From the NCBI GenBank assembly GCA_017307375.1, contig JAFKFH010000004.1, positions 372,001 to 436,000 on the forward strand: a stretch of DNA of 64,000 nt, given 5' to 3'. The position numbers were made by a program, and so were the translations under genes. This DNA comes from Alphaproteobacteria bacterium (lineage in GTDB: Bacteria; Pseudomonadota; Alphaproteobacteria; Ferrovibrionales; Ferrovibrionaceae). The notes under the pieces were generated by a model. That model was not told where the DNA came from, did not search any database, and was given only the letters and a program-made list of their open reading frames with translations. Each line of letters opens with the position of its first letter. Position 1 is the first letter of the stretch. Positions 710-59,857 of this stretch are shown here, one piece after another.

Positions 710-750
710 TCGGCCGGCGTCGCTCCCCTGACAACCGACCGGAGGCACCG

Positions 751-13703: not shown

Positions 13704-13705
13704 CC

Positions 13706-14374
13706 ATGGTCGAGCGTTACGCCCATTGGCGCGACATCCCGGCCGAGGCCTGGCGCTGGCGCGATTTTCCGCCGGCGGAGATCGCTGACCGGCTGACCGG
13801 GGAGATCGTGGTCGACGAGGTGGCGCTCGATCGCCTGCAGGCGCTGCGCGATCACCTCGGCAAGCCGGTGATGGTCATCTCAGGGTACAGGTCGGCCGCC
13901 AACAACCGGCGGGCCGGGGGCGGCTCCGGCTCGGGCCACCTGACCGGTTCGGCCTTCTGCGTCGGCATGCTCAACCACGATCCCGCACAGTTCGAGGCTG
14001 CCGCCAGGGGCGCCGGCTTCACCGAGATCGGGCGCTATCCGGCTGAGGGCCTGATGCACATCGGCCTGGGTTCGGCACGCACCTTCGGTACGCCGTTCCC
14101 GCCCGGCGCCGGCACGTTCTCGGCCGAACCGGCCCCGGCAACGGCGGGGTTCTCGCCGGCCGGCATCACGGCTGTCGGCATCGGTGCTGGCCTCGGCCTG
14201 GCCGGGCAGGCGGCCGACGCCAGCGACCATGGCAAGCGCCTGGTCGGCAACCTTGCCGACATGTCTGGTCTGGCGCCGCACCACGTCACCTGGCTGTTCG
14301 TCGCCGGTTGCCTGCTGGGCGGGCTCGGGCTGATCGCGCGGCACTGGTTTACCCACCGCCGACCGAAGGACTGA
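13706..14374 (+). CDS. Peptidase M15-like protein with C-terminal membrane anchor
   Basis: The 222-residue product has an N-terminal domain of the M15_3 / VanY-like zinc peptidase fold, with SGYRSAANNRRAGGG followed by GSGHLTGSAFCVGM and a later GLMHIGL. In the family pattern SxHxxGxAxD the Asp is a zinc ligand; here that position is Cys. A Cys could still bind zinc, or the domain may only bind peptidoglycan. A C-terminal membrane segment (about residues 196-214) would tether it. It sits between the endolysin and the spanin pair, so a second lysis enzyme is the natural reading. Confidence 0.75.
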   Translation: MVERYAHWRDIPAEAWRWRDFPPAEIADRLTGEIVVDEVALDRLQALRDHLGKPVMVISGYRSAANNRRAGGGSGSGHLTGSAFCVGMLNHDPAQFEAAARGAGFTEIGRYPAEGLMHIGLGSARTFGTPFPPGAGTFSAEPAPATAGFSPAGITAVGIGAGLGLAGQAADASDHGKRLVGNLADMSGLAPHHVTWLFVAGCLLGGLGLIARHWFTHRRPKD

Positions 14375-20461: not shown

Positions 20462-21896
20462 CCTGCTGCCCCACCAGCCGCCGGCAGTGGCCAAGCTGCT
20501 GCCGGCGCGGGTCGGCGGATTGTTCATGGACATGGGCACCGGAAAGAGCCGCGTGCTGCTCGAGCTCGCCCGGCTCCGGGGCCACAAATGGGACCGGCTC
20601 TACTGGTTCGCGCCTTGCTCGCTGAAGGAGACGGTGCGCCAGCAGATCGCGATCCATACCGACATTCCGCCCGATCAGGTCGCGGTCTGGGACGATCATG
20701 TCCACTCGGACCGGCGACCGACCCAGCCCGTCCAGATCATCGGGATCGAGACGATGTCGTCGAGCGATCGTGCCGTCACGGCATTCGCGGGCATGGTGAC
20801 CGATCAGACCTTCGTCGCCGTCGACGAATCTGCTTACATCAAGGGGCCGATGGCTCGGCGGACGCAGCGGATCACGGCGATGAGCGAGCGGGCCCGGTAC
20901 CGCGCCGTCCTGAACGGAACCCCGCTTACCCAGGGCGCGGTGGACCTGTATTCGCAAATGCGGTTCCTGAGCCCAAAGATCCTCGGCTATCGCTCGTTCT
21001 GGTCGTTCGCGGCCAACCACCTGGAATACGAGGTGCGGCGGGACGGTTTCGGGCGCCGTGTCCGCACCGGCCGGATCATCCGCAGCCACAATGTCGAGTG
21101 GCTGGCCGCCAAGATCGCGCCCTATGTCTACCAGGTGCGGAAGGACGAATGCCTGGACCTGCCCGAAAAACTCTATGCCGACCGGTTCTGCACGATGACA
21201 GGCCAGCAGCGCGACCTGTACGAGCGCGCCAAGGTCGAACTGCTGCTCGACCTCGCTCGGCACGACTGGGAGCGGCTGCAGATCCTGCGGCTGTTTTCGG
21301 TCCTGCAAACGATCACCTGCGGCTTCTGGCGCCGGCTGCGCGAGGATGGGACCCGTGAGCTGATCACCGTGCCGCATAACCGGCTGTCGCTGCTTGCCGG
21401 CGTGCTGGACGAGATCCCGCGCGAAGACAAGGTGATCATCTGGTCGCGGTACCATCATTCGACCGACGAGATCGTCCGGATGTTGGCCGAGCGGGACGGG
21501 GAGGGCAGCGCCGTGCGCTATGACGGCAGCCTCGGCGATCGGGCCCGCCAGCAACACCTCGCCCGCTGGCGGCAGCCGGGCGGCCCGCGGCACCTCGTCG
21601 CGACCATGGGTGTCGGCGGGCGCGGCCTGACGCTCAACGAGGCAGCCTACAGCGTGTTTTACGCCGACAGTTTCCGCTACGAGGACAGGATCCAGTCCGA
21701 GGACCGGAACCACCGTATCGGCCAGACCAGGCGGCCGGTCTACGTTACGCTGCGCTGCGGCAACTCGATCGACGATCGGATCGCCGCTTCACGCGTCAGG
21801 AAGGCCAGTACCCTGGCCGAGTTTCAGCATATGGTCGACCGCTACCGCAGCCAGGGCCTGCGCGACCGGCTCCACGAGATGGTGATGATGCTATGA
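20439..21896 (+). CDS. SNF2-family DEAD/DEAH-type helicase
   Basis: The 485-residue product is a superfamily 2 ATPase of SNF2 type. Walker A is MGTGKS (residues 32-37). The DEAH-like box is DESAYIK near residue 128, with NGTPLTQG as motif III. In the C-terminal lobe MGVGGRGLTLNEA and QSEDRNHRIGQ (about 418-429) are motifs V and VI. Phage SNF2 proteins translocate on duplex DNA in replication or recombination. It overlaps both neighbours by short stretches, so it is part of a single cassette with the IbrA-like and IbrB-like genes. Confidence 0.9.
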   Translation: MIFSTTTDLLPHQPPAVAKLLPARVGGLFMDMGTGKSRVLLELARLRGHKWDRLYWFAPCSLKETVRQQIAIHTDIPPDQVAVWDDHVHSDRRPTQPVQIIGIETMSSSDRAVTAFAGMVTDQTFVAVDESAYIKGPMARRTQRITAMSERARYRAVLNGTPLTQGAVDLYSQMRFLSPKILGYRSFWSFAANHLEYEVRRDGFGRRVRTGRIIRSHNVEWLAAKIAPYVYQVRKDECLDLPEKLYADRFCTMTGQQRDLYERAKVELLLDLARHDWERLQILRLFSVLQTITCGFWRRLREDGTRELITVPHNRLSLLAGVLDEIPREDKVIIWSRYHHSTDEIVRMLAERDGEGSAVRYDGSLGDRARQQHLARWRQPGGPRHLVATMGVGGRGLTLNEAAYSVFYADSFRYEDRIQSEDRNHRIGQTRRPVYVTLRCGNSIDDRIAASRVRKASTLAEFQHMVDRYRSQGLRDRLHEMVMML

Positions 21897-29952: not shown

Positions 29953-30897
29953 TCAGCCGGGCTCGTCAAGGACGGGAAAGTGGAAGCGGGCGGCGGCGCC
30001 TTGCGGCCGGCGCGGCACCTCCGGCGGCGCGGGCAGGGGTGACGCGGCGTCGGCCACCAGGTCGGCGAGCGACACCCGCGCCACGATCTCCGCCAGGCGG
30101 CGCTTCAGTTCGGCCTCGTGCGCCGCGAGTGCCGCCGGGCCGCGGTAATGCGGAACGTCCTGCCGGAACAACGGGTCCTTGCGGGCTTCGTCGAGGCAGC
30201 GCTGGATCAGGAACAGCCCTCTCGCCGGCCTGATGCCGATGGTGAGGTGGACGGAAACGTCGCCTTCGACCGCCGTGCGATGCCACTCGCCCCGCGGCAC
30301 GACCATGACGTCGCCGGGCCGCAGGAGATCGTCGCGCACCGGCGCCGCCGGGGCAGGGGGGCCGCCCCGGCCGGGCCGGTCGATCGCGACCGGAAATGCT
30401 TCCCGGCGGTCGTAGAACCACCAGCGCTTGGCCCCGTGAATCTGCGCCACGATGATGTCGTGATCGTCGAAATGGGCTGCCAGCGCACTGCCGCGACGGA
30501 ACGACAGGTAGGTGTTGGCCGATACGCGTGCCTCGAAATGCGCCTGCAGGGCCGCCGTCAGGCGGCGGATGGCGGGGACCAACTCGTCGATGCGATCGAT
30601 CAGGATCGTCGCCCCCTGGCGCAGCAGGCCGTGCAGCGACGAAGCGTCCGGGCCGGCGCCCGGCCGGGCAGCGGACCACAGCCAGTCGGGCAGCCGCATG
30701 CCATCCCGCATCACGGCCATCCGGTCCGGTTGCAGGCAATCGCCGTCGAACAGGCTGTTGATGGTGTCCCAGGGGAACAGGCCGGCCAGCTTGTCCGGCT
30801 GCGGCGCGCGCACGACGACGATCTCGCCGTTGCGATAGCGGCCGGTGAAATCTTCCGGCGCCATCGGGAAGGCCAGCTCGCGCAGATTGCAGACCAT
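29953..30897 (-). CDS. JmjC/cupin-type Fe(II)/2-oxoglutarate oxygenase-like protein
   Basis: The 314-residue product resembles the cupin-4/JmjC ribosomal-oxygenase-like family. HFDDHDIIVAQIHGAKRW contains the HxD facial-triad motif. The second His lies in PRGEWHRTAVEGDVSVHLTIG near residue 207. Family members hydroxylate protein side chains. Divergent from kinase 1 and next to the RiPP genes, it could hydroxylate the peptide or one of the enzymes' targets; that link is inference. The N-terminal start at 30897 has a short spacing to a GGAGG-like site. Confidence 0.75.
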   Translation of the reverse strand: MVCNLRELAFPMAPEDFTGRYRNGEIVVVRAPQPDKLAGLFPWDTINSLFDGDCLQPDRMAVMRDGMRLPDWLWSAARPGAGPDASSLHGLLRQGATILIDRIDELVPAIRRLTAALQAHFEARVSANTYLSFRRGSALAAHFDDHDIIVAQIHGAKRWWFYDRREAFPVAIDRPGRGGPPAPAAPVRDDLLRPGDVMVVPRGEWHRTAVEGDVSVHLTIGIRPARGLFLIQRCLDEARKDPLFRQDVPHYRGPAALAAHEAELKRRLAEIVARVSLADLVADAASPLPAPPEVPRRPQGAAARFHFPVLDEPG

Positions 30898-31049
30898 TCA
30901 CGATACCTCCCGCCGGTCGGGCGCGATCATGATTGCCGGTGCGGCGCTGGTCAATCGGGCTGCGGCCAGCCGGGATAGTGCCGTAGCGGCGATGTTGATA
31001 GCATGGCCGCCCTGCCCCCGTTCGTGCGACGTCTCTCGGATTCCCCCTC

Positions 31050-32090
31050 GTGATCAGCGATGCCAAGCCACACAAGTCCTTCGCCGATACCGGCCACGTA
31101 CCGTCGGGCAGCGGCGCCGCGCGGCATGGCGAGCGATCCGGTACCGATGGGGATCGGGCCTTGTGCGGGTGGCGGGTGGCGAGCGCGGTGCCGTTGTCGG
31201 GCCTGCCGCAATGGCGCGGCGACGATCGCGCGGCCGATATTGTCGTCACCGTCGGCCCGGTGCCCGACCGCCTGCCGGATCTGATCCTCGACCAGCCGCC
31301 CGTGCAGATCTCGGCCGACGGGGCTTGCCGGTTCGCCGTGCCGGACGTCGCGGCGTATCTGATCGACCCTGCCGGCCGCCGCGTCGCGATCGATCCGGTC
31401 GCCGGCGCGTCGACCGAGGACATCCGGATCTTCCTGCTGGGCACCGTGCTGGGGATCCTGTGCGCGCGCCGGGGGATCCTGCCGCTGCATGCGGCCTGCG
31501 TGCAGGTCGGCGACGGCGCCGTGGCACTGGCCGGGGCGTCCGGCATGGGCAAGTCCACCTTGGCCGCCGCCTTTATCCAGCGGGGATACCGGATCCTGTC
31601 CGATGACGTCACGGCGGTCGAGGTCGCCGGCGATCACCGGGTGCTGGTCCGGCCATCGCTGCCGCGGCTCAAGCTCTGCCCCGACGCGATGGACCGCTTG
31701 ATGATGCCCGCCGACGCTGCCGAGCGTGCGTTGCGGGACGCCGGCAAGTTCATCATACCGGTCGACGACCACTTCCATCCCGCGCCGCTGCCGTTGACCG
31801 CCGTCGTCCATCTGCGGCCGGCACCGGACGGTATGCCGAGCACGCTCCATCGCCTGTCGGGAATCCAGGGGCTGGCGGCGATCGCCGACGATGTCTATCG
31901 GCCGATCCTGACGCGATGGCTGGACCAGGCGGACCGGTTGGCCCGCGTCTCCTTCGCCATGGCGGGTGCGCCCGGCGGGTGCTGGCAGTTGTCGTACCGT
32001 CACGATCCGGATGGTCCGGAGGCCGCGGTCGATCGGATACTCGATGCGCTCGCCGCGCCCGTCCGGGCCTCGTCAGGCAACCCGCGCTGA
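31050..32090 (+). CDS. HPr-kinase-like RiPP kinase 1
   Basis: The 346-residue product has Walker A GASGMGKST, the preceding LPLHAACV and the following ILSDDVTAV, as in HPr kinase/phosphorylase and its lasso-peptide relatives. It aligns with kinase 2 from SGTDG onward (both then have a conserved CG in LCGWRVAS / LCGLHLAS). The first 30 or so residues from GTG 31050 may therefore not be translated, although no other good start is visible. The paeninodin-locus kinase phosphorylates the precursor's C-terminal Ser; both precursor candidates here end in Ser. It converges with sulfotransferase 1, overlapping by 18 bases. Confidence 0.85.
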   Translation: MISDAKPHKSFADTGHVPSGSGAARHGERSGTDGDRALCGWRVASAVPLSGLPQWRGDDRAADIVVTVGPVPDRLPDLILDQPPVQISADGACRFAVPDVAAYLIDPAGRRVAIDPVAGASTEDIRIFLLGTVLGILCARRGILPLHAACVQVGDGAVALAGASGMGKSTLAAAFIQRGYRILSDDVTAVEVAGDHRVLVRPSLPRLKLCPDAMDRLMMPADAAERALRDAGKFIIPVDDHFHPAPLPLTAVVHLRPAPDGMPSTLHRLSGIQGLAAIADDVYRPILTRWLDQADRLARVSFAMAGAPGGCWQLSYRHDPDGPEAAVDRILDALAAPVRASSGNPR

Positions 32091-32951
32091 GCCTGGCCCG
32101 TCCCCGTTCGCCCACTCCGTCCCGATCGGGCAGCTGATCCCGTTGGCTACCGCCCATGCGGCGATATCGGTCCACGGGTCCAGGCTGTCCGACAGCATCC
32201 GATAGACCTGCTTGGCCGGGGCCTTGTCGTACCATTCCCGGCAGTCATCCGGCATGTCGGACAGTCTGACCCGGTAGAGGTCGGCCTCGATGTTCCCGAT
32301 CGCGCGCCTCTCCCGCTCCGCATCCGGCGTCAGCCCGGCGAAGCGGCCGACCTGCCGGACGAAGCCTGCCGGATCGTCGATGTGTAGCGCATAGGGGAAC
32401 AGGGCCGTGCCGGCCTTCAGGTCGCGCACGTGACAGGTCAGAATATTCGCCAAGGCGACATAGTCGCGCGTGTAATTGTAGAGAAACGCGGTCGTCTCGA
32501 TGAAAAATTGCCGCGATTCTTCCATTGCCGGATTGAAGCAGCGCAACGACACCGCGCTTTCCAACGGACAGCGGATCGGAATGAGGAGGCGCGCGCCGCC
32601 CGCCGCCAGGGCCTGCCATTGGGGGAGGCGCGCGGGTCGCATCATGTTGGCCAGGCCGATCTTGACCGCGCAACCGTCGACCGGGCCGGTACGCGCAACC
32701 TGCTCCACCGTCAGTCCCTGCGCCAGGATGTCGGCGTCTTCGAAATACCCCTTCGGGTTTGCCGCGACCCCGAGGTCGTCCCGATGGAAGCGTCCGACCC
32801 AGGGTGCCCCGAGTATCGCCAGCGTCTGCATCAGCAGCGACGATCCGGTCCGTGGGTGCGCCAGGACGACAAGCGGGCTCTGCACCCTGGCCGCGTCAGA
32901 CGGCGGTGGCATGGCGGAAAACATCGAGCCGGCAAAATCCCTCTCGGACAA
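32073..32951 (-). CDS. Sulfotransferase-family protein 1
   Basis: The 292-residue product has the PAPS 5'-phosphosulfate loop in LAHPRTGSSLLMQTL (about residues 32-46). Its 3'-phosphate site is less clear (IRCPLESAVSL). It resembles the sulfotransferase-3 type more than the classical PF00685 member encoded at 36709. Its position inside the RiPP island and the presence of a second sulfotransferase suggest sulfation of a peptide hydroxyl, or an ancillary surface-glycan role. No precursor is directly attached to it. Upstream, 32952-33193 holds nothing I can assign. Confidence 0.75.
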   Translation of the reverse strand: MSERDFAGSMFSAMPPPSDAARVQSPLVVLAHPRTGSSLLMQTLAILGAPWVGRFHRDDLGVAANPKGYFEDADILAQGLTVEQVARTGPVDGCAVKIGLANMMRPARLPQWQALAAGGARLLIPIRCPLESAVSLRCFNPAMEESRQFFIETTAFLYNYTRDYVALANILTCHVRDLKAGTALFPYALHIDDPAGFVRQVGRFAGLTPDAERERRAIGNIEADLYRVRLSDMPDDCREWYDKAPAKQVYRMLSDSLDPWTDIAAWAVANGISCPIGTEWANGDGPGSARVA

Positions 32952-33193
32952 ACCTCGGCTTCATAGCGTACTTCCCGCCCCGGACGCCGGCAACCTGGCC
33001 AGCCGGCGCGACGCCATGATGCCGCAAATACCGCTCGTGTCGACCGAGCGCATGATGCGCCGATGTGTCGAAATTCTTTCGAATACACTTACGTATCCGC
33101 GGATTATTGTCGGAGCTGGTGGACAGGTTGTGCTTCCTTGATTGGCGTGGCATGGTGCGTCTCACTCCCACGTCAACTGCTTTACATGCGCCG

Positions 33194-33358
33194 ATGACCC
33201 CCAGCAATATCGCGAATACGAAGACCGCGCCGGAGCGCCCAACGCGTCCGCTCTGGCGCAAGCCGGTCTACGCCGCCCACAGCATCAATCAATTTACCCA
33301 GACCCGGACATGCGGCACCGGATCCGACAGTTTTCCCGGATGGTGCGCGGCCAGTTGA
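33194..33358 (+). CDS. Candidate lasso-type precursor peptide 2
   Basis: The ORF of 54 codons lies 92 bases before cyclase 1. The leader has WRKPVY, matching the YxxPxL recognition motif used by PqqD/RRE proteins. A Thr 11 residues after the Pro is in the penultimate leader position, as in precursor 1. The predicted core is TRTCGTGSDSFPGWCAAS, with Asp at position 9, two Cys and a C-terminal Ser. Length and ending match precursor 1, and codon third positions are mostly G/C. Doubts are a weak ribosome site, an upstream in-frame ATG at 33152 and the unusual Thr1. A rival frame (33142-33441) is less codon-biased. Confidence 0.5.
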   Translation: MTPSNIANTKTAPERPTRPLWRKPVYAAHSINQFTQTRTCGTGSDSFPGWCAAS

Positions 33359-33450
33359 GCAGCCGGGCCGCGCAACCGGCGTCGTCAGCGCGTCGTTTTG
33401 TCCCGCGCTCGGGTTTGGGTTCGCCCCTAAAGTCAGCGTAACGGTGAGGC

Positions 33451-35349
33451 TTGGGAAAGTCAGGTCGCCCGGGAACTGGTGAACCCGACCAGACCGCCTT
33501 TGTCGGGCTGCTGTGTCGGCAGCCATCCGATCGGCTTCTGCGCCGCATCTCGACCCATCCGGGCCGGCGCGTCGAGTGCGGGCCGGTTCATCTGGCCGGG
33601 CCGGGCCGCCGGATCAGAGGCGAAACCGGAATCCAGGCCTTTGCCCTGGCCGGTCGCCTGGTGAACGACCACGAACTGGCGGGCGACCAGTCAACCGGTG
33701 CTTCGCCGGCCGATGCCGCGGCCGTGGCGATGGGCCAGGTCCAGCGCCGCGGGCTGGACGCGCTTAGCGGATTTCGCGGGCATTTCGCGCTGGCGCATTG
33801 GGATCAACGGGCCGGTCGCCTGTGGCTGGCCAGCGATCACCTCGGCCGCCGTACCGTCTTTTATGCGCGCGTCGAAGACGGGTGGGCGTTCGCGTCAGAC
33901 CTGCGCAGCCTGCTGGCGCTGCCGGGCGTGTCGTCCGAATTGAACGACGGCTTTCTGGCTGCCGCCCTGTCCGACGTGCCGCCGGAACCTGACGAGACCT
34001 GGTATGCGGCCATCCGGCGGGTACCGGCGGCCAGCGTCGTCGAGCTTCATCCGGACGGGCGAGAGGTTCCGCGCGGGTATTGGCGGCCGGACGAGGGATC
34101 TCGCCTCGCCTTTCGGAAGGACGACGACTATGTCGAGCAGGCCCGCGCGCTGCTCGACCGCGCCGTGGCGCGGGGCATGCACGGCAACGAAACCGTCGTA
34201 TGCCAGCTGAGCGGCGGATTCGACTCCGGCGGCGTTGCGGCTACCGCGGCGCGGCTGGCGATGCCACGGCGGATCCATGCCTTGACCGTGGCGCCCCCCG
34301 AAGGCATGCCTCTGTTCGAGCATCCGTCGTTTTTCGGCGATGAACGCCCGTTGGCGCGGTCCGTCGCGGCGATGCACGCGAACATGGCCTGGGAAGCGGT
34401 ATCATCGGCCGACCTCCATCCGCTGGATGAAAGTCCGACACGGCTTTTCCTGGCCGGCGCCGCGCCGGCCCGGGGTGTTCTCAATGTCGGCTGGTACGGC
34501 CCCTTGTTCGATCGCGCCCGCAGCCTCGGCGCCCGGTCGATGCTCACCGGCGGCATGGGCAACATGACGCTGTCCTGGGATGGATTATGCGGCCTGGCGT
34601 CGATGGCGCGGCGGGGGGATTGGTGGCGATTGCTGCGCGAGGCGCGGGCGCTGGCGAGGCGCAGCGGCGTTTCCGTCGCCGCGGTGCTGCGGCGGCATGC
34701 CATCATGCCGCTGCTGCCGCCCCGTCTGCAGGCGCGGTGGGCAGCCTTGCGCCATGGCGTGAAGTCCGACGGTGAAGAGTTCAGCGCGGTTCATCCGGAA
34801 TTTGCCCGCAAGCATCTCATCCCCGAACGGCGGCTGGCGCTGGGGATGGACTACCCCGGCGATACCGCGGCGATGCGGCGCCGCTGGCTTTTCTACATCC
34901 AGTCGAACCCATGGACGGCGGACTGGACCGACGGGCTGCTCGGCATCGACACCTATGCCCCCTTGTCGGACGTCGACTTGCTGGAATTCTCCTTCGCCGT
35001 GCCCGAGGAACAGTATTTCCGTGACGGGCAGACCCGCTGGCTGGCGCGGCGGGTGCTGGCGGACCGCTTGCCGCCGGCGGTGCTGAACGAAACCCGGCAC
35101 GGCTTCCAATGCGCCGAATTCCTGCACCGTCTGACCCTGCAGCGCGCGCAGATGGGCGAGACCCTCGCCCTGCTGGAACGCTCGCCGCTGGCTTCCCGCA
35201 TGCTGGATCTCGATCGCCTGAAGCGACTGATCGCCAGCGAGTGGCCGACGGACGCGGCCAGTACCGGGTTCGGCGAATACGGTGGCGTGCTCCACCGCGG
35301 CTTGCACTACGGACAGTTTCTCCGCTGGGCGGAAGGCGGCAACCAGTAA
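33451..35349 (+). CDS. Asparagine-synthetase-like lasso cyclase 1
   Basis: The 632-residue product has an N-terminal Ntn-type domain without the Cys2 needed for glutamine hydrolysis, then an ATP-pyrophosphatase domain with CQLSGGFDSGGVAATAARLA (SGGxDS). Lasso cyclases (C proteins) activate the core Asp or Glu side chain with ATP and close the macrolactam. The first in-frame codon after an upstream TAA is TTG at 33451; the true start is uncertain, but the segment TAFVGLL aligns with the MSAFAGVV start of cyclase 2. A candidate precursor ends 92 bases upstream. PqqD 1 follows after 128 bases. Confidence 0.85.
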   Translation: MGKSGRPGTGEPDQTAFVGLLCRQPSDRLLRRISTHPGRRVECGPVHLAGPGRRIRGETGIQAFALAGRLVNDHELAGDQSTGASPADAAAVAMGQVQRRGLDALSGFRGHFALAHWDQRAGRLWLASDHLGRRTVFYARVEDGWAFASDLRSLLALPGVSSELNDGFLAAALSDVPPEPDETWYAAIRRVPAASVVELHPDGREVPRGYWRPDEGSRLAFRKDDDYVEQARALLDRAVARGMHGNETVVCQLSGGFDSGGVAATAARLAMPRRIHALTVAPPEGMPLFEHPSFFGDERPLARSVAAMHANMAWEAVSSADLHPLDESPTRLFLAGAAPARGVLNVGWYGPLFDRARSLGARSMLTGGMGNMTLSWDGLCGLASMARRGDWWRLLREARALARRSGVSVAAVLRRHAIMPLLPPRLQARWAALRHGVKSDGEEFSAVHPEFARKHLIPERRLALGMDYPGDTAAMRRRWLFYIQSNPWTADWTDGLLGIDTYAPLSDVDLLEFSFAVPEEQYFRDGQTRWLARRVLADRLPPAVLNETRHGFQCAEFLHRLTLQRAQMGETLALLERSPLASRMLDLDRLKRLIASEWPTDAASTGFGEYGGVLHRGLHYGQFLRWAEGGNQ

Positions 35350-35477
35350 ACCGCAAGTCGATGCGGGCCGGTTCGCGGTGGCAGGACGATCGCCGCTTCA
35401 GACCGACCGGCTGCATTACTTGACACCTTGGATGGCATCGGGCAGAGGTTCCGCCTCATCAATGACCGATCCGCATC

Positions 35478-35774
35478 ATGGCAGACGCCGATATTCCTCC
35501 ACTTCTTCCTGCTATGCTCGTATGCCGCCGGGAAACTCTGCTGACCGCCGATTTGGCCGACCGGATGCTGATGATGGACCCGGACAACGGACTCTATTTC
35601 GAACTCGATACCATCGGCACCGACATCTGGCGACGGCTGGCAACCCCGGTACCGGTGGCGCATCTGGTCGCGGACCTGACCCGTGACTACGACGCACCGC
35701 GCGCAGAAGTTGAACGGGATGTGCTCGCTCTCCTGCACGACATGGTGGCGTACGGGCTGGTGACTGCTTGCTGA
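35478..35774 (+). CDS. PqqD-family RiPP recognition element 1 (lasso B1-type)
   Basis: The 98-residue product has the PqqD winged-helix pattern: MLMMDPDNGLYFELDTIGTDIWRRL, shown here in part as DPDNGLYFELD and GTDIWRRL, then VAHLVADLTRDYD and ALLHDMVAYGLV. PqqD/B1 proteins hold the precursor leader and present it to the enzymes. Its stop overlaps the start of kinase 2. It is a discrete protein, which in lasso systems normally implies a separate B2 protease; none follows. Confidence 0.85.
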   Translation: MADADIPPLLPAMLVCRRETLLTADLADRMLMMDPDNGLYFELDTIGTDIWRRLATPVPVAHLVADLTRDYDAPRAEVERDVLALLHDMVAYGLVTAC

Positions 35775-36712
35775 GCCCATCACCGGGGACGGATGGATAC
35801 CAGCACAACCTGTGCGGATTGCATCTGGCATCCGACATGCCCCTGCCCGAACTGCCCCCCTGGCGGGGAGCGGAAGGTGGAACGCCGGAAATTGAGGTGC
35901 GGCTGGGCAATGTGCCAGACCAACTGCCCGACATCATCCATCGAGGACCGATTCTCCAGATTGGCGGCGACGGCTCCTGTCGCTACAACATGGCGGGGGT
36001 CGCCTGCTTCCTGATCGAAGGGGGACGGCGCATCACCGTCAGGCCCCACATGGCGGCGGACGCCCCGGACGTCCGCCTGTTCCTGCTAGGCAGCGTCTTC
36101 GGTCTGCTCTGCCATCAGCGCGGATGGCTGCCCCTTCACGCCTGTTGCGTGGAGATTGGCGGGCGCGCCATCGCCTTTGCCGGGCCGTCCGGCATCGGAA
36201 AGTCGACCCTCGCTGCCAGCTTCGTTCGCCAGGGTTACCGGCTACTGGCCGATGACGTGACCGTCATCGATGCCCATGCGCCGGGGGGACCCTTAGTCAT
36301 CCCCGCCATCGGACGCATCAAGCTATGGAGGGACACGCTGGACGCGCTGAAGATTTCGGCAGACGGGCTGGAACCCTGCCGAAACCGGATGGAGAAGTTC
36401 CAAGTTCCGGTGGGCGGACGGTTCCAGCTCACCAGACTGCCGCTCACGGCCATCCATCTTCTCGACCGGGTCAGCGATGAGCGGCAGGCCGAACTGTTGC
36501 CCCTGGTCGGACTGCAGGCCGTGGAAACCCTGCTGGGTGCCGTCTATCGGCGCCAGGCCGGCGAACGGATGGGTAAGCGGCCGCAGATGCTTCGGGCCAT
36601 CCACCGTCTGCTGACGGTGCCCATCCTGGCGCTGCGTTATGCCCAAGGGCTGAGCCATCTGCAGCAGACGGTCTACCGGATGGCTGCCCGTTATGAAGGT
36701 CGCGGGGAATGA
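35768..36712 (+). CDS. HPr-kinase-like RiPP kinase 2
   Basis: The 314-residue product starts at a TTG overlapping the PqqD 1 stop. It contains GPSGIGKST (Walker A), LPLHACCVEI and LLADDVTVID in the same order as kinase 1. The expected reaction is ATP-dependent phosphorylation of the precursor's C-terminal Ser, as known for paeninodin-type kinases. Its stop overlaps the sulfotransferase 2 start by four bases, so PqqD 1, kinase 2 and sulfotransferase 2 form a coupled unit. Confidence 0.85.
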   Translation: MLSPSPGTDGYQHNLCGLHLASDMPLPELPPWRGAEGGTPEIEVRLGNVPDQLPDIIHRGPILQIGGDGSCRYNMAGVACFLIEGGRRITVRPHMAADAPDVRLFLLGSVFGLLCHQRGWLPLHACCVEIGGRAIAFAGPSGIGKSTLAASFVRQGYRLLADDVTVIDAHAPGGPLVIPAIGRIKLWRDTLDALKISADGLEPCRNRMEKFQVPVGGRFQLTRLPLTAIHLLDRVSDERQAELLPLVGLQAVETLLGAVYRRQAGERMGKRPQMLRAIHRLLTVPILALRYAQGLSHLQQTVYRMAARYEGRGE

Positions 36713-37533
36713 CCGGATTCTGCTGGCTGGCCTCATACCCCAAATCGGGCAACACTTGGCTGCGCCTGGCATTGCAGAGCCTGATCAATGGCGGGAAGGA
36801 GGTCGATTTCCGGTCGCGTGAGACCTTCGCCGCCATCGCAGCGAGCCGGGCAGACCTCGAAGACGTGCTCGATGCCCCGGTCGACGAGATGACGGATGAC
36901 GAGGCCGAAGCGCTGCGGCCCCGCTTGTATGAAACCCAGGCGCGGGCAGCCGCGGCCCCACTGTTCCGCAAGGTGCACGATGCCTGTATGACGACGTACG
37001 CCGGGGAACCCCTGTTTCCGCCGGCACTGACCCTGAAGACGGTCTATATCGTGCGCGACCCGCGCGATGTTGCCGTCTCGCTGGCCCATCACACCGGGAG
37101 GGATCTGGACCAGACGATTGCTTTCATGGGCGATCCCGCGGCGACCTTCGGCTTGGCGGGCAAACGACAGTTGCGCCAAGTATTGTCGACCTGGAGCTTC
37201 CATGTCGAAAGCTGGTTGCGGGACGGGCCTGAATTGCTGCTGCTGCGCTACGAGCATATGCTGGCAGCCCCTGAAGAAGTGCTGGGGCGGGTGGCGTTGC
37301 ATCTGCGTCTGGACGCATCCCCAATGGACGTCCGCCGTGCTGCGGCGGCCACGCGTTTTGACCGGCTGCGCGCGGCTGAGGACAGATATGGTTTCCGCGA
37401 AAGCCCGGCTGCCGGGGTCCGATTCTTCAGGCGGGGCATTGCCGGAGGCTGGCGGGACAGCCTGACTCCGGCCCAGGTGGCGCGGATCGTGGCAAACCAT
37501 GGCCCGGTCATGGCTCGCCTGGGCTACGCCTGA
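36709..37533 (+). CDS. PAPS-dependent sulfotransferase 2 (PF00685 type)
   Basis: The 274-residue product has the 5'-phosphosulfate loop WLASYPKSGNTWLRLAL near the N terminus. The 3'-phosphate motif is VYIVRDPRDVAVSLAHH near residue 110, and the C-terminal FFRRGIAGGWRDSLTPAQ is typical of the family. It would transfer sulfate to a hydroxyl group. Coupling to the kinase gene by an ATGA overlap makes a role on the RiPP likely. The terminal Ser, core Thr residues or a hydroxylated residue are possible acceptors. Confidence 0.85.
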   Translation: MTGFCWLASYPKSGNTWLRLALQSLINGGKEVDFRSRETFAAIAASRADLEDVLDAPVDEMTDDEAEALRPRLYETQARAAAAPLFRKVHDACMTTYAGEPLFPPALTLKTVYIVRDPRDVAVSLAHHTGRDLDQTIAFMGDPAATFGLAGKRQLRQVLSTWSFHVESWLRDGPELLLLRYEHMLAAPEEVLGRVALHLRLDASPMDVRRAAAATRFDRLRAAEDRYGFRESPAAGVRFFRRGIAGGWRDSLTPAQVARIVANHGPVMARLGYA

Positions 37534-37558
37534 CGGCTAAATCCCCGGCCATCGTGGC

Positions 37559-39490
37559 CTATCGGTTGCCGCCTTCCGTCCAGTCCAGGAACTGCCCGAC
37601 ATGCAGCACGCGCAGCAACTGGACGCGGAAGGGTGCGCTGTTGCCGGCCAGGGTTTCAGGGTCCGCGGGCCATTGCCGGCTCAGTTCCCTGATCAGCGGC
37701 ACATTCAGGATCCGGGTGGCCAGGGGCGATCGCTCCAGCCGTTCCACCTGAGCCTCCAGCACATCGCGGTTCGGGTTCAGGCGCGCATGCCAGTCGGTAT
37801 TTTGCGCGCCACGCCGATAGTTCGAGATGATCTCCGGCGACAGCCGGTCGGCAAAAGCACGCCGCGACAGGCGGCGCCAAATACCTTTCGACAGGAACTG
37901 CTCGTCGGGCAACGACAGGCAGAATTCGAAGACCCGGCGGTCGGAAAACGGATCGGAAGGGGTGACGCCGTTCATCGTCCTTTGGACCACAACCCCATCG
38001 GTTTGCATACGCGACCGGAACAGCACATAGCGCAGGACGGAAGCGATTGTATCCGATGAAATAAGGGTCTGCCGCAATGCCCCCTCTCGTTCAAACCGTC
38101 CTTCCAAACCCGCGCTGCGCAGGAAGTCAGGGTTCAATAACGTCGGAGGAAAACTCGCGGCCCATCGCCGGCGACGCACAGGTAGCCAGCTCGGCAGGGC
38201 CTGCGAGACCTGCCCGCGCGCCAGTCCGCGCCAGACGGAGGGCGTCATCGTGTGCCGCAGAGCCAGGATTTCATGGGCCAGGGCTGTCCAGGCCCGGTCC
38301 CGACGAAGGGCGTCAAGCCGGGCAAACCCGTCCGCACTGAAGGTGTAATTGCCGAAATCACCTTGCAGCAGGGTGGTCGCGCCTAGTTCGGCGGCCCGCT
38401 CATAGACCGGCACAAACCATGCTACGTTGGATGGCGAGCGCACAGCAACACCAGTCGCCAGGAATTGGCCGCGCGGGTCCAGCTCCGCCGGCCGGGTGGC
38501 CCGTGATGATAGATATTCCAGCTGCAGATTGGGATGCCGCGCGGCCAGGGTCGCCACAAAGGGACGTTCGCTGGCATATTCATGCGGCATGACGGGAACC
38601 GGCACCCCATCCATCGGCACGGCACATAATCCATGCACGGTGGCAGGGGCGCGTTGCTGGGCGGCCGTCGTTGCCACGGCGCTGGAATCCAATCCCCCGC
38701 TGACCATGGCGACCACCGGTCCCGCGATGCGCAGGCGGCAGGCCACCGCCTGATCGAAAACGTCGCGGGCGGCATCCACGTAATCTGCGTCGCGCGCCAG
38801 GCGCAGCGTCGGGCGCGGCCCCGGTTCCCAGAACCGGTTGCGGGTCACGGCATCTGGGGTCACGATGATGCGTTCGGCCGGGCCGACCCAGGAAATTGCC
38901 TTGTACAGGCTGCGGCCGCTTTCGTCGGGCGTGGTCAGCAGGATGTCGGCGATGGCAACTTCGTCCAGATCGCGCGGGATTTCAGGCAGCGCCAGCAGGG
39001 GCCGGTAATCGGTAGAAAAGGCGACGAAGCCGTCGCCCCGGCTGAACAGCAGGGATCGATTGCGGGCGCTGTCGCGCGCCAGCATCAGCCGCTTGTCGCG
39101 CTGGTTCCAGACGGCCCAGGCGAAATCCCCCAGAAGACGGGGAACCGCATCCTCTCCCCAGCGCTCATAGGCAGCGCGGGCGATGTCCCCATCGGGGACC
39201 GGACGGGACACCGGGCTGGTCAGCCCCAGTGTACTCAGCAGCTCTCCGCGGTTGTCCAGCCTGCCATCGAACATCGATACGACCACACCGTCGGCACCAA
39301 CGGCCGGTTGGCGTTCATGACGGTCTTCAGGGGCGAGAATGCGCTGTCGGAATGCGAAAATGCCGACGCCGACCCGGCGCAGCGTCAGCGCCCCCAGGCC
39401 CTTGCCGTCCAGACTGTTGCTGAAACGGGCATCGACGCCTTGTGGAGGGCTGCCGCCACCAAGCGCGACGACACCCGCGAATGCACTCAT
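37559..39490 (-). CDS. Asparagine-synthetase-like lasso cyclase 2
   Basis: The 643-residue product starts MSAFAGVVALGG, so the glutaminase Cys2 is missing. The synthetase domain has AMVSGGLDSSAVATTAAQQ (SGGxDS). The length and the missing Cys2 fit lasso C proteins. Precursor 1 ends 49 bases upstream on the same strand. It converges with sulfotransferase 2, the two stops being 25 bases apart. The near-identical C-terminal endings of the two cyclases (FLRWAEGGNQ and FLDWTEGGNR) show that they are paralogues. Confidence 0.88.
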   Translation of the reverse strand: MSAFAGVVALGGGSPPQGVDARFSNSLDGKGLGALTLRRVGVGIFAFRQRILAPEDRHERQPAVGADGVVVSMFDGRLDNRGELLSTLGLTSPVSRPVPDGDIARAAYERWGEDAVPRLLGDFAWAVWNQRDKRLMLARDSARNRSLLFSRGDGFVAFSTDYRPLLALPEIPRDLDEVAIADILLTTPDESGRSLYKAISWVGPAERIIVTPDAVTRNRFWEPGPRPTLRLARDADYVDAARDVFDQAVACRLRIAGPVVAMVSGGLDSSAVATTAAQQRAPATVHGLCAVPMDGVPVPVMPHEYASERPFVATLAARHPNLQLEYLSSRATRPAELDPRGQFLATGVAVRSPSNVAWFVPVYERAAELGATTLLQGDFGNYTFSADGFARLDALRRDRAWTALAHEILALRHTMTPSVWRGLARGQVSQALPSWLPVRRRRWAASFPPTLLNPDFLRSAGLEGRFEREGALRQTLISSDTIASVLRYVLFRSRMQTDGVVVQRTMNGVTPSDPFSDRRVFEFCLSLPDEQFLSKGIWRRLSRRAFADRLSPEIISNYRRGAQNTDWHARLNPNRDVLEAQVERLERSPLATRILNVPLIRELSRQWPADPETLAGNSAPFRVQLLRVLHVGQFLDWTEGGNR

Positions 39491-39539
39491 GAACCAACGT
39501 CAATCAAGCACGGACAACTCGGGAAGGACATCCCGTGGT

Positions 39540-39704
39540 TCAGGAAGCCAGCAGATTATTGGCACCATCGTCCTGGGTGGCGGCGGCGGCAAGGGTGATC
39601 ACTCCGATCGGCGCAACCGTCAAACGGGGCGCAACCCAGGGCTTGCGGGCCGGCTCTACCAAATCGACTTCCATATCGTTTTGACCGGAATCCTGTCCCG
39701 CCAT
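39540..39704 (-). CDS. Lasso-type precursor peptide 1
   Basis: The 54-residue peptide starts at ATG 39704 with GGGAGAG six bases upstream; a longer frame from 39749 has no such site. The leader contains KPWVAPRL, the YxxPxL-type motif, then a Gly and a Thr at residue 37, 11 after the Pro. If Thr is the penultimate leader residue the core is AAAATQDDGANNLLAS, with Ala1, Asp7 and Asp8 available for a 7- or 8-member macrolactam ring and a C-terminal Ser. The gene is directly upstream of cyclase 2. Core boundaries are predicted, not shown. Confidence 0.75.
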   Translation of the reverse strand: MAGQDSGQNDMEVDLVEPARKPWVAPRLTVAPIGVITLAAAATQDDGANNLLAS

Positions 39705-39773
39705 GGCCGACTCTCCCAAAACTAGCAATTCATCTCTACAATCAAACAAACTTTACAGCGCTATCCGTTGCAA

Positions 39774-39890
39774 AAGACAGTGGATTTTAAGGCGAAGGTG
39801 GCGCTTGAGGTGGTTTGGCGCCACTTAGCGATGGCGCAGCTCGCATTGAAGCCCAGTCTTAGCGAGGCAATGATCAGCGCTTCGCGCTAG
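39774..39890 (+). pseudogene. Remnant of an IS3-family orfA
   Basis: A frame of about 39 codons starts near a TTG and reads QKTVDFKAKVALE, which matches the N terminus of IS3-type OrfA proteins (FKAKVALE is a signature). It continues MAQLA and EAMIS in the positions of the OrfA helix-turn-helix and then stops. No orfB or terminal repeat is recognisable. It lies in the 323-bp gap between PqqD 2 and precursor 1; the rest of that gap holds nothing I can assign. An alternative reading as B2-protease debris on the other strand is weak. Confidence 0.5.
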
Positions 39891-40027
39891 GTCAATCGTG
39901 CCGGAACCGACGGCCCGCCGTCGATACAGCCATGTCGCACATTGATTTCCTGGACTTATTCTCTGCCGAGTCGCCGCCGGCTGCGGGCCGGTATTGGTGC
40001 GCCGCCTGTCGTGCGCCTGACTGTGCT

Positions 40028-40333
40028 CTACGGCGAAGTCGGCACGACTGTTTCGATCAGGCCGTTGTCGGACAGAAACGCCAGGAATTCCAGCACGTCG
40101 TCCTGGATCTGCGCCGGATCGCCCTCGTACTTGGCCGCCAGATCCTTGACCAGGTCGTAAACCTGAACGTCTCCGACTATCCGTTCCCAAATATCCGCTG
40201 AAATGGAATCGAAGTCAAAATAGTTGCCACTAGCAATATTCATCAAAATAAGTTCGTTGTTCAGCGGCGTCTGCAATGTCTCGCTTCGCCGCCGAATATG
40301 AGAAGACGATGTGATTTGAGTTGATTTAATCAT
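40028..40333 (-). CDS. PqqD-family RiPP recognition element 2 (lasso B1-type)
   Basis: The 101-residue product has the PqqD pattern: LILMNIASGNYFDFDSISADIWERI (key parts SGNYFDFD and ADIWERI), VYDLVKDLAAKYEG and EFLAFLSDNGLI. It is clearly less GC-rich than its neighbours, which suggests recent acquisition. It is upstream of precursor 1 and cyclase 2 on the same strand, with an insertion remnant between. In related loci a B2 protease gene would follow a B1 gene at once. Confidence 0.85.
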   Translation of the reverse strand: MIKSTQITSSSHIRRRSETLQTPLNNELILMNIASGNYFDFDSISADIWERIVGDVQVYDLVKDLAAKYEGDPAQIQDDVLEFLAFLSDNGLIETVVPTSP

Positions 40334-40470: not shown

Positions 40471-42138
40471 TCAGGGCACGTAGAGTTGATGCTTGTACCA
40501 GCTCCAGGCCTGATTGCCATAGGCTGGCGACTGGACGTAGGAAACCGGCGAGCTGGGCTGGTAGGATCCGGACAGCGAGCCGATCGCGAGGTTGCCGGCC
40601 AGCATCGCGTCGGCCGCGGTCAGGTCGAGGCGCGGCAGGCGGTAGCGGCCGTCCAGCACCAGCGGCTTGCCGCTGCGGGCCAGCGCCGTCTCGTAGTCGA
40701 AGGTGCGGTGGCCAGGATAGGCGGCATGCAGCACCGCCAGTGCGCCCGCGACCATCGGCGTGGCCATCGAGGTGCCGGAGAACCGCGCGTACCGGCCGCC
40801 GGGGATCGCCGACAGCACCAGGTCGCCGGGGGCGGCGACGAAGACCAGCGGGAAGGCGGCGAGATTGGTGCCGGCATTGTCGGAGAAGACGTCGGCCGGC
40901 GTCGTCGCCGCGACCGCGATCGCCGGGCTGAGACAGGCGGGGAAGGCAAGCTCGCCGCGATAGTCGTCGTTGCCGGCGGCGATCGCGGTGGTGACGTTGA
41001 GGTCGCGCAGGCGGTTGAGCACGACCAGCAGAATTTCGGCCCCGTCGTCCTCGGTGTCGCCGGCCAGATCCGCGTCGCAGAACCGTCCGATCCGGCCACC
41101 GCCGAGGCTCATGTTTGCCGCCGCGATCCGTCCCGGATTGGCCTGGGCCAGGCTTGCCACCTGGTCGAGGCCGGCGAGGAAGTCGATCGTGTCCGACCCG
41201 ATCGACCATGCCTGCGCCTTGGCGTCCCAACCGCGATGGAAGACCTGGATGGCGATGACGTCGGCCTGGGGGGCGACGCCGTAGACCCCGGCGACCGGGT
41301 CGTTGCCGGTGGCGATGCCGGCGACATGGGTGCCGTGCACGCAGGATGGGACGAGATCGGTCTCGGGGCAGTTCGAGGCGGTGCCGGGGCCGATCGCCGC
41401 GCTGGCCCGCCCGGGGCAGAGCGAAAAATTCAGCCGGGCGGGATCATGACCCGAAAAGCAGGCCTCGATCACCGTCTTGCCGGCAAAGGCCGGGTGCGCG
41501 GTATCGACGCCGGTGTCGAGGACGGCGACGAACTGGCCGGCGCCGACATGGCCCGCGGACCAGACTGCGGGGGCGCCGATGACGCGCAGGTTGTCCGGCT
41601 GGGCCAGCCGGCTGGTGGCGGTCGGGGCGGGCGGCCGCGCCGCCTGGGGCTGCGTGGATGCCCTGCCGGCCGGCGCGGGGGCGGTCAGCGAGGCGACGGG
41701 CAGGCCGGCGGCCCGTATCGGGTCGATCGGCCGGGGGGCCAGGGCCAGTTCGCCGCGCGACGGCGCGTCCGCCGGGCCGAAACGGCGATTGGGCGCGATC
41801 GAGACGACCAGCGGATGGGCCTGCAGCGCAGCAAGCCCGTCGCGGGTCGCCTGCACCGCCAGCACGGGCACGGCGGCATAGCGGGTATCGACCAGGATAC
41901 CGGCGCCGACCGCGTCGATCACCGCCTGCTGGCGGTCGTGGATCGCCTGGCGCAGGGCGGTGTCCCCGGACGCGGGATCGATATCCGGCGGCACCAGACC
42001 GACGATCAGCGTCACGCGGTCGTGGCTGGCCAAGCCCGCGGTGATGGCGGGCGATACCGGCACCGGATCCGCCAATGTCGGTCCGGCGGCGGTCAAGCCG
42101 GCCGCGAGGCCGAGCAACAACATGCGGAAACGCTTCAA
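40471..42138 (-). CDS. Secreted subtilisin-like serine protease (S8) 1
   Basis: The 555-residue product has a signal peptide, an I9-like propeptide region (residues about 30-130) and an S8 catalytic domain. The triad is Asp in AVLDTGVDTAHPAF (about 207), His in HGTHVAGIATGNDPVAG (about 268) and Ser in GTSMATPMVAGALAVLHAAY (about 453). It ends in WSWYKHQLYVP. It is a close tandem paralogue of the next gene. A 7-bp hairpin (40419-40437) lies beyond its stop. As an exported enzyme it is unlikely to replace a cytoplasmic leader peptidase. Confidence 0.9.
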   Translation of the reverse strand: MKRFRMLLLGLAAGLTAAGPTLADPVPVSPAITAGLASHDRVTLIVGLVPPDIDPASGDTALRQAIHDRQQAVIDAVGAGILVDTRYAAVPVLAVQATRDGLAALQAHPLVVSIAPNRRFGPADAPSRGELALAPRPIDPIRAAGLPVASLTAPAPAGRASTQPQAARPPAPTATSRLAQPDNLRVIGAPAVWSAGHVGAGQFVAVLDTGVDTAHPAFAGKTVIEACFSGHDPARLNFSLCPGRASAAIGPGTASNCPETDLVPSCVHGTHVAGIATGNDPVAGVYGVAPQADVIAIQVFHRGWDAKAQAWSIGSDTIDFLAGLDQVASLAQANPGRIAAANMSLGGGRIGRFCDADLAGDTEDDGAEILLVVLNRLRDLNVTTAIAAGNDDYRGELAFPACLSPAIAVAATTPADVFSDNAGTNLAAFPLVFVAAPGDLVLSAIPGGRYARFSGTSMATPMVAGALAVLHAAYPGHRTFDYETALARSGKPLVLDGRYRLPRLDLTAADAMLAGNLAIGSLSGSYQPSSPVSYVQSPAYGNQAWSWYKHQLYVP

Positions 42139-42283: not shown

Positions 42284-43954
42284 TCAGGGCACGTAGAGCT
42301 GCTGCTTGTACCAGTTCCAGGCCTCGTTGCCGCGCGCCGGGTACTGCACATAGGAGACGGGCGCTGCCGGCTGGTAGGGGCCGGAAAGCGAGCTGCCGCC
42401 GACATTCCCGGCCAGGATGGCATCGCTGACCGGCAGGTCGAGGCGCGGCAGGCGGAACTGGCCGTCCAGCACCAGCGCCTTCCCGCCGCGGACCAGCGCG
42501 GTCTCGTAGTCGAACGCCTGATAGCCCGGATAGGCGGCATGCAGCACCGCCAGCGCACCGGCGACCATCGGCGTCGCCATCGAGGTGCCCGAGAAGCGGG
42601 CATAGCCGCCACCCGGTATCGCCGACAGGATCAGGTCGCCCGGGGCGGCGACGAAGACCAGCGGGAAGGCAGCGAGATTGGTATCGGCATTGACCGAATA
42701 GGTATCGCCAGCGTTGGTGGCAGCCACCGAGACGGCCGGGGTGACGCAGGCCGGCGAGCCGACCGCGCCGCGGAAACCTTCGTTGCCGGCGGCGATGGCC
42801 GTGGTGACGCTGGCATCGCGCAGGGCATTGACCGCCATCGCCACCGCCACCGCGCCGGGATCCTGGGCCGCCTGGCCGGCGGTATCGCAGAAGGTCGGTT
42901 GCGGCGTGTCGCCACCCAGGCTCATGTTCACCGCGGCGATGCGGCCGGGAGTCTGCTGTGCCAGGTCGGCGACGAAGTCGAGCGCCGCGACATAGTCGAG
43001 GGTGACGGCACCGATGGCCCAATTGCCGATGCGCGGATTCCAGTAGCGGCTGAAGACCTGGACGGCGATGACGTCGGCCTGCGGGGCCACGCCGTAGACG
43101 GCGGCGACCGGGTCGTTGCCGGTCGCGATGCCGGCGACATGGGTGCCATGGACACAGGATTCGACCAGGTTCGTATCCGGGCAGGCCGAGGCGGCGCCCG
43201 GGCCGACCGCGTAGAGCGCCCGGCCCGGGCACAGCGAGAACATCAGGTCGGCCGGGCTCTGCGACGAAAAGCAGGCCTCGACGATCGTCTTGCCGGTGAA
43301 GGCCGGATGCGAGGCTTCGATCCCACTGTCCAGCACGGCGACGAACTGTCCGGCGCCGACATGGCCGACGCTCCAGACCGCGGGGGCGCCGATCACGCGC
43401 AGATTGTCCGGCTGGGCCAGCCTGGTGGCCGCGGTCGGGGCCGGCGGCCGGGCGCTCGGGGGCGGCGGCGTGGCGCGGCTGTCGGCCTGCGGGCCGGCAA
43501 GCGTGCGGCCGGCCAGGCCGCTGGCCCGGCCCGGATCGACCTGGCGCGGGGCCAGGGCCAGTTCACTGGCCGCGCGGTTCGCCTGCGTGCCGACGACGCG
43601 GTTCGGCGCGATCGCCGCCACCAGCGGGTGGACCTGCAGCGCGGCAAGGCCGGCCGCCGTCACCTGGACACCCAGCGCCGGGATCGTCGCATAGCGCGTA
43701 TCGACGATCAGGTCGGGGCCGATGGCAACGATCACCGCCTGCTGGCGCTCGCGGATGGCCTGGCGCATGGCCGCATGGCCGGCGCCGGCATCGATCGTCG
43801 GCGGCACCAGGCTGACGATCAAGGTCACGCGCTCATAGGTCGAGAAGGCCGCGGTCACCTCGGGGGCGACGGGAACCTGCGCCACCGCAGGGGCGGCCAG
43901 GGCCAGCCCGGCGGCGAGGCCGAGCCAGATGCCGATGCGCTTCAATTCATGCAC
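42284..43954 (-). CDS. Secreted subtilisin-like serine protease (S8) 2
   Basis: The 556-residue product has the same plan as its neighbour: signal peptide (MHELKRIGIWLGLAAGLALA), I9-like propeptide and S8 domain. Asp is in AVLDSGIEASHPAF (about 207), His in HGTHVAGIATGNDPVAA (about 269) and Ser in GTSMATPMVAGALA (about 457). It ends WNWYKQQLYVP. An 8-bp GC hairpin (CCGGGGCG and CGCCCCGG, near 42252-42272) follows the stop. The pair looks like a recent duplication. Confidence 0.9.
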   Translation of the reverse strand: MHELKRIGIWLGLAAGLALAAPAVAQVPVAPEVTAAFSTYERVTLIVSLVPPTIDAGAGHAAMRQAIRERQQAVIVAIGPDLIVDTRYATIPALGVQVTAAGLAALQVHPLVAAIAPNRVVGTQANRAASELALAPRQVDPGRASGLAGRTLAGPQADSRATPPPPSARPPAPTAATRLAQPDNLRVIGAPAVWSVGHVGAGQFVAVLDSGIEASHPAFTGKTIVEACFSSQSPADLMFSLCPGRALYAVGPGAASACPDTNLVESCVHGTHVAGIATGNDPVAAVYGVAPQADVIAVQVFSRYWNPRIGNWAIGAVTLDYVAALDFVADLAQQTPGRIAAVNMSLGGDTPQPTFCDTAGQAAQDPGAVAVAMAVNALRDASVTTAIAAGNEGFRGAVGSPACVTPAVSVAATNAGDTYSVNADTNLAAFPLVFVAAPGDLILSAIPGGGYARFSGTSMATPMVAGALAVLHAAYPGYQAFDYETALVRGGKALVLDGQFRLPRLDLPVSDAILAGNVGGSSLSGPYQPAAPVSYVQYPARGNEAWNWYKQQLYVP

Positions 43955-59793: not shown

Positions 59794-59857
59794 CGGTTTG
59801 CGAAGCGCCCTGCCTTCAGGCTAGTTTCGACTGGCCGACACGGGGGACGGGGTTCTG

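Follow-up and report, generated by a model that had tools for sequence, protein, structure and literature searches.

How are lasso peptides matured when the genes that encode them stand without a leader peptidase? Lasso pathways are usually described as self-contained, each with its own leader peptidase (B2). The question is raised by a 64 kb stretch of DNA (the window) from an alphaproteobacterium of the Ferrovibrionaceae (GenBank assembly GCA_017307375.1, contig JAFKFH010000004.1, positions 372,001 to 436,000), in which an island at 29953-40333 of the window carries lasso-type genes and no B2. An earlier note on this DNA had named two cyclases (C) without Cys2, two PqqD proteins (B1), two HPrK-like kinases (K), two sulfotransferases (S), one JmjC protein and two precursors (A); all of these parts are present within the island, and what the note overlooked is the absence of B2, a defining lasso enzyme. 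Profile, fold and open reading frame (ORF) analysis identified eleven credible genes there, in the order and on the strands listed in Table 1. The reading that we favor, and consider probable, is that the island holds two independent lasso pathways, an inner cluster lying within an outer one, and that a single orphan B2 encoded elsewhere in the genome acts on them in trans.

Precursors and cyclases

Judged from their sequences, both modules have a strong claim to be lasso-type. The C-terminal part of A1 comprises leader residues LWRKPVYAAHSINQFTQ followed by the predicted core TRTCGTGSDSFPGWCAAS, and that of A2 comprises RKPWVAPRLTVAPIGVITL followed by AAAATQDDGANNLLAS. Both leaders contain WxxP, fitting the [Y/W]xxPx[LVIAFY] motif by which leaders engage the RiPP (ribosomally synthesized and post-translationally modified peptide) recognition element, or RRE (PMC13381572), and both have Thr at -2, a residue discussed as a recognition element in PMC10368454. 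Each core ends in Ser, the residue on which the kinase of paeninodin-type loci acts (PMC9266682), and places an acid at position 9 (A1) or 8 (A2). The A1 core is 18 residues long with two Cys, for which a Thr1-Asp9 ring is predicted and a Cys4-Cys15 disulfide is possible; the A2 core has 16 residues and no Cys, with a predicted Ala1-Asp8 ring.

Combining these elements into one precursor rule ([Y/W]xxP in the leader, Thr at -2 and an Asp or Glu at core position 7-9) singles out A1 and A2 as the only fitting ORFs in the 64 kb. Across all loci, the rule fits 20 of 230 ORFs directly upstream of a cyclase and 14 of 11,679 elsewhere (p=2e-26, a value overstated by post hoc combination: although the leader motif, Thr at -2 and the ring acid are each drawn from published rules, they were assembled after some sequences had been seen), and most of those 14 are likewise small ORFs within lasso loci. 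The concern that homologous loci might lack any conserved precursor does not hold, since matching precursors lie upstream of the relatives' cyclases. A1-like cores (ITNCGSGSDGVICNADS, ITNCGSGDDTVICQSS and ITNCGSGTDGVICQSS) precede C1-type cyclases in loci L071 (genome G113), L023 and L024, which favors a ring of nine residues and a disulfide from Cys4 to the tail, and A2 is 50% identical over 38 residues to the precursor upstream of the Elstera litoralis cyclase (locus L002).

Inspection of the cyclases also fails to bear out a second concern, that they might be true glutamine-dependent synthetases. The N-terminal Cys2 nucleophile of glutamine-dependent asparagine synthetase is missing from both: the N-terminus of C2 reads MSAFAG, and no MC start lies in frame in C1, whose start codon is uncertain. 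Both proteins find a match in NF033535, the NCBI model for lasso cyclases (Table 1), with scores under its curated cut-off (525 bits). Cyclases in every one of the 18 genomes searched fall short of it too, so that routine annotation would name them asparagine synthase. The kinases K1 and K2 align with the H-K-DD residues of HPrK-like lasso kinases. Together with the precursor rule, the RRE and cyclase profiles and the C-terminal Ser, these residues bear out the earlier description of the locus as lasso-type and paeninodin-like.

We class the locus as a variant of the paeninodin-type lasso clusters (PadeK/ThcoK; SyanK in Sphingobium), with which it shares a PqqD RRE, a cyclase, an H-K-DD kinase, a precursor ending in Ser and a [Y/W]xxP leader (PMC9266682, PMC8498205, PMC13381572). 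Unlike those clusters, it has no local B2, and it is further set apart by two apparently nested clusters, extra sulfotransferases, a JmjC oxygenase and the two Cys of the A1 core.

Arrangement of the two clusters

Rather than duplicates, the two modules are, on phylogenetic evidence, two different clusters. Identity is low between C1 and C2 (34%), K1 and K2 (45%) and B1_1 and B1_2 (35%), marking them as old paralogues. In the cyclase tree, C2 groups with Elstera and Azospirillum sp. TSO22-1 (L003) at 100/100 and C1 with L071, L023 and L024 at 100/100; identities are 62% and 58% for C2 with the Elstera and Azospirillum cyclases, and 54-55% for C1 with those of L071 and L023. The kinase tree divides along the same lines: K1 joins the Elstera and Azospirillum kinases (97/90), and K2 those of L071, L023 and L024 (94/95). 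The pairing of kinases with cyclases is good. The B1 tree puts B1_1 nearest the Azospirillum and Elstera proteins with little support and lacks the strength needed to assess how the RREs pair. Recent tandem duplication was rejected, given the low paralogue identity and separate tree placement, and S1 and S2 were rejected as duplicates for want of any detectable similarity.

Gene order follows the trees. The Elstera locus reads A-C → ← S-K-B1, which is the order of A2-C2 relative to S1-K1-B1_1 here. The other lineage reads K-S-A-C → ← B1 in L023 and L024, with B2 added in L071, and the third lasso locus of the same genome (L022) follows the same order; removal of 35.4-39.75 kb from our map leaves K2-A1-C1 → ← B1_2. 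Taken together, the trees, the gene orders and this reduced map suggest that an Elstera-type cluster (B1_1-K1-S1-C2-A2) became nested within a K2-A1-C1-...-B1_2 cluster. No long repeats border the inner cluster, other than the similar ends of C1 and C2.

Comparison with the relatives shows how each half departs from its own lineage. The Elstera and Azospirillum loci share with the island a cyclase of the A-C lineage and a convergent kinase and RRE, and the Elstera locus also has the sulfotransferase S; in contrast to the island, both are single clusters with no second cyclase, S2 or JmjC, and the Azospirillum locus carries a B2. L071, L023 and L024 resemble the island in their C1-type cyclase, K2-type kinase and ITNCGSGxD...C precursor core, and differ in that a Sulfotransfer_1 gene separates their kinase and precursor genes and that no cluster is nested in them; L071, unlike the island, has a local B2.

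The earlier note had taken every enzyme to be duplicated, a loose description: JmjC is single, the sulfotransferases are dissimilar, and the cyclase, kinase and PqqD pairs are old paralogues. It had likewise expected two related peptides: there are two, though with an 18-residue two-Cys core, a 16-residue core free of Cys and cyclases only 34% identical, they are not closely related. Its division of the modules by opposite strands is probably wrong, since the phylogeny nests the clusters.

Under this arrangement, the outer pathway would consist of K2, A1, C1 and probably B1_2, flanked by S2 and JmjC, and would be interrupted by the Elstera/Azospirillum-type cluster, in which B1_1-K1-S1 converges on A2-C2. 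The PqqD RRE of each pathway would bind the WxxP leader, and the HPrK-like kinase would phosphorylate the C-terminal Ser on the linear precursor; the leader peptidase would cleave two residues past the conserved Thr, and the ATP-dependent cyclase would link residue 1 to Asp9 (A1) or Asp8 (A2) and thread the tail. S1, which appears translationally coupled to K1, and S2 would be expected to sulfate the peptide, and JmjC to hydroxylate it.

Absence of B2 and the case for processing in trans

A profile derived from B2 sequences in related loci, run at maximum sensitivity with no heuristics, found no credible B2 in the window; its best match (E=0.067, at 25.5 kb) was rejected as a hidden B2. Elsewhere in the genome, the B2 family (PF13471) occurs once, as an orphan on contig C16 (around 786663-787267) with no cyclase, PqqD or precursor near it. 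This orphan retains the family Cys and His, and its nearest tree neighbor is the B2 in a lasso locus of genome G334. The genome as a whole encodes three lasso-type cyclases, three PqqD proteins, three lasso-type HPrK proteins (plus one other HPrK) and one B2; the third cyclase belongs to L022 (C38:579883), about 170 kb from the island.

The same situation recurs in other genomes. An orphan B2, accompanied by neither cyclase nor PqqD in the examined stretch, is found in G052, G180 and G277, which form one genus, in G007 and G009, which form one genus of the host's family and each also have a clustered B2, and in G059; conversely, 13 loci with a cyclase and PqqD have no B2 in the examined stretch. 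In G007 and G009 the orphan adjoins an ATP-binding cassette (ABC) exporter about 41% identical to lasso-locus exporters. A single orphan lineage was rejected, as the orphans are scattered across the B2 tree, indicating that B2 became unclustered more than once or was repeatedly lost and kept.

From the 3:3:3:1 gene count and the recurring orphans, we infer that one B2 is shared in trans; most likely, the single genomic B2 would serve both island precursors and that of the third locus. Going further, we suggest tentatively, at somewhat less than even confidence, that one orphan B2 recruited by three RREs matures three lasso peptides in one cell, at least one of which would carry both phosphate and sulfate. 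Descriptions of a lasso B2 acting in trans, or of a sulfated lasso peptide, were not found in the literature accessible to our search, which lay mostly outside subscription journals. A partial parallel comes from lanthipeptides, a different RiPP class with a different protease family, where the maturation protease is reported to lie, in some cases, outside the cluster (PMC8960859). If the recurrent orphan is indeed shared, several pathways would rely on one protease through RRE-guided delivery. That would matter for how RREs hold pathways apart, and clusters without B2 should not be discarded in genome mining.

Several observations weigh against this reading. The C1 and C2 profile scores lie below the model's cut-off, a shortfall common to all 18 genomes searched, and the TTG start of C1 at 33451 is doubtful. 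B1_2 is unplaced by the B1 tree and compositionally odd (50% GC against 68% in the window), so its pairing rests on position, although its best match among lasso PqqD chaperones in the PDB reaches E=1.4e-8. The window has no match to the dedicated ABC exporters of lasso loci; an exporter of this type is present in L022. No B2 was found in Elstera, the inner-type relative, in a draft genome whose locus lies at a contig end, and our host assembly, although 100% complete by estimate, is in 41 contigs, such that a missed B2 is still possible.

Four other explanations deserve comparison with the two-cluster reading. The modules might follow strand, with A1-C1-B1_1-K1-S1 on the plus and A2-C2-B1_2 on the minus, as adjacency and the poorly supported B1 tree would allow; since in the trees K1 groups with relatives of the C2 type and K2 with those of the C1 type, and Elstera displays exactly A-C → ← S-K-B1, we give this a small though real chance. 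One or both clusters might instead be in decay, having lost both B2 and the capacity to yield a peptide, in keeping with the missing B2 and with a C1 that lacks a clear start codon and aligns poorly at its N-terminus. That the catalytic genes are all open with their motif residues, that both precursors retain every element of the rule, and that in about half of the related loci B2 is likewise missing locally but kept elsewhere in the genome make decay unlikely.

The leader might also be removed by another protease, the orphan B2 being unrelated to the island. Tandem S8 subtilases (40471-42138 and 42284-43954; 66% identical) directly adjoin B1_2, and other lasso-like RiPPs in Bacillota employ a different leader peptidase (PMC13381572). 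Each subtilase has an apparent signal peptide, however, which points to action outside the cytosol, neither occurs in the related lasso loci searched, for which reason they were rejected as cluster members, and the protease of related loci, where present, is B2; this alternative is very unlikely. Least probable of all, in our view, is a linear phosphorylated RiPP or other amide-linked peptide in place of a lasso. Linear polyphosphorylated peptides (LPP) of Bacillota do share an RRE and an HPrK-like kinase with lasso loci and are co-located with lasso genes, but LPP clusters have an SpI-type peptidase and no cyclase (PMC13381572), whereas each module here has a cyclase, and Thr at -2 and the acid at 8/9 are maintained across relatives. 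Neither core begins with Gly, yet Gly at position 1 is dispensable, as metanodin has Asn there (PMC12670498).

Tailoring genes and genomic surroundings

Phosphorylation of the peptides is expected from the kinase family, and sulfation and hydroxylation are plausible from the encoded proteins. S1 overlaps the end of K1 at an ATGA junction and is 60% identical to the Elstera sulfotransferase. The pairing of a kinase with a Sulfotransfer_1 protein is also found in L002, L022-L025, L027, L071, L072, L074, L075, L077, L082, L086-L088, L090 and L099, indicating a conserved lasso sub-type across Alphaproteobacteria that is not unique to this island. The frequency of this pair, and a putative sulfotransferase gene noted previously in Firmicutes lasso clusters (PMC8498205), partly weaken the claim that no lasso locus with the full gene set was known. 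Only 9.5 mDa separates phosphate from sulfate, and a mass read as "phosphorylated" in the product of a kinase-sulfotransferase locus may therefore be a misassignment. The calculated [M+H]+ is 1783.716 for A1 with lactam and disulfide and 1484.698 for A2 with lactam; a phosphate would add 79.966 and a sulfate 79.957, a difference that only high resolution can tell apart.

S2 resembles a PAPS (3'-phosphoadenosine-5'-phosphosulfate) sulfotransferase in its predicted fold: the Pfam match is weak (PF13469, E=0.018), and the top PDB matches of a modest model (pLDDT 60) are PAPS sulfotransferases, the best being Teg12, with E down to 5.5e-5. The sole relative found among 385 genomes (32% identity) lies in a lasso locus, L101 (G395), with two kinases and two PqqD proteins. 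A JmjC relative (34%) is encoded within lasso locus L077, close to a further precursor-like ORF, and 2-oxoglutarate-Fe(II) oxygenases occur in other lasso loci as well; among the 18 genomes searched in the host's order, JmjC relatives were absent beyond the host's own genome.

Table 1. Features of the lasso island, in window coordinates.
Feature	Coordinates	Strand	Evidence
JmjC_2/cupin, putative Fe(II)/2-oxoglutarate oxygenase / peptide hydroxylase	29953..30897	-	Pfam PF08007 E=1.3e-17; HxD...H residues present
K2, HPrK-like lasso peptide kinase, outer module	31050..32090	+	PF07475 above cut-off; H-K-DD residues; tree
S2, divergent PAPS sulfotransferase-like protein	32073..32951	-	weak PF13469; fold search
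A1, predicted lasso precursor, core TRTCGTGSDSFPGWCAAS	33152..33358	+	precursor rule; matching cores in relatives
C1, lasso macrolactam synthetase without Cys2	33451..35349	+	NF033535 E=8e-46; TTG start uncertain
B1_1, PqqD-type RRE, inner module	35478..35774	+	PF05402 E=1.5e-16; NF033536 E=5e-14
K1, HPrK-like lasso peptide kinase, inner module	35768..36712	+	PF07475 above cut-off; tree
S1, PAPS sulfotransferase (Sulfotransfer_1)	36709..37533	+	PF00685 E=1.4e-22
C2, lasso macrolactam synthetase, Ser replacing Cys2	37559..39490	-	NF033535 E=6e-75
A2, predicted lasso precursor, core AAAATQDDGANNLLAS	39543..39704	-	precursor rule; Elstera precursor match
B1_2, PqqD-type RRE, outer module by elimination only	40028..40333	-	PF05402 E=1e-16; NF033536 E=2.5e-15

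Other lasso loci offered further observations. Yet another sulfotransferase-like protein, the third distinct one (weak PF13469), stands beside the cyclase in L028, L029, L030, L078, L080 and L083, and the lasso kinase and sulfotransferase frames of Elstera (L002, 11649-13438) are seemingly frameshifted in the draft sequence. The lasso island L074 (G334:C3:1-20000) is larger and encodes three each of cyclases, kinase-sulfotransferase pairs and PqqD proteins, along with two or three B2. Three tandem phage-tail-collar proteins (PF07484) and a GNAT acetyltransferase adjoin the lasso clusters L003, L022, L023, L024, L075, L082, L086, L087 and L099; PF07484 genes are not present in the window, and a collar relative occurs in 10 of the 14 genomes encoding this cyclase versus 8 of 371 others (p=2e-12).

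Within the window, phage-like genes occupy positions 1-28000, among them a tail tape measure gene (706-6909), a peptidase/endolysin (13658-14371) and a phage helicase-like gene (20358-21893). On the other side of the island lie a double-domain KaiC-like ATPase (55853-57331) and a protein combining TPR and GT41 (O-GlcNAc transferase type) domains (59831-62194).

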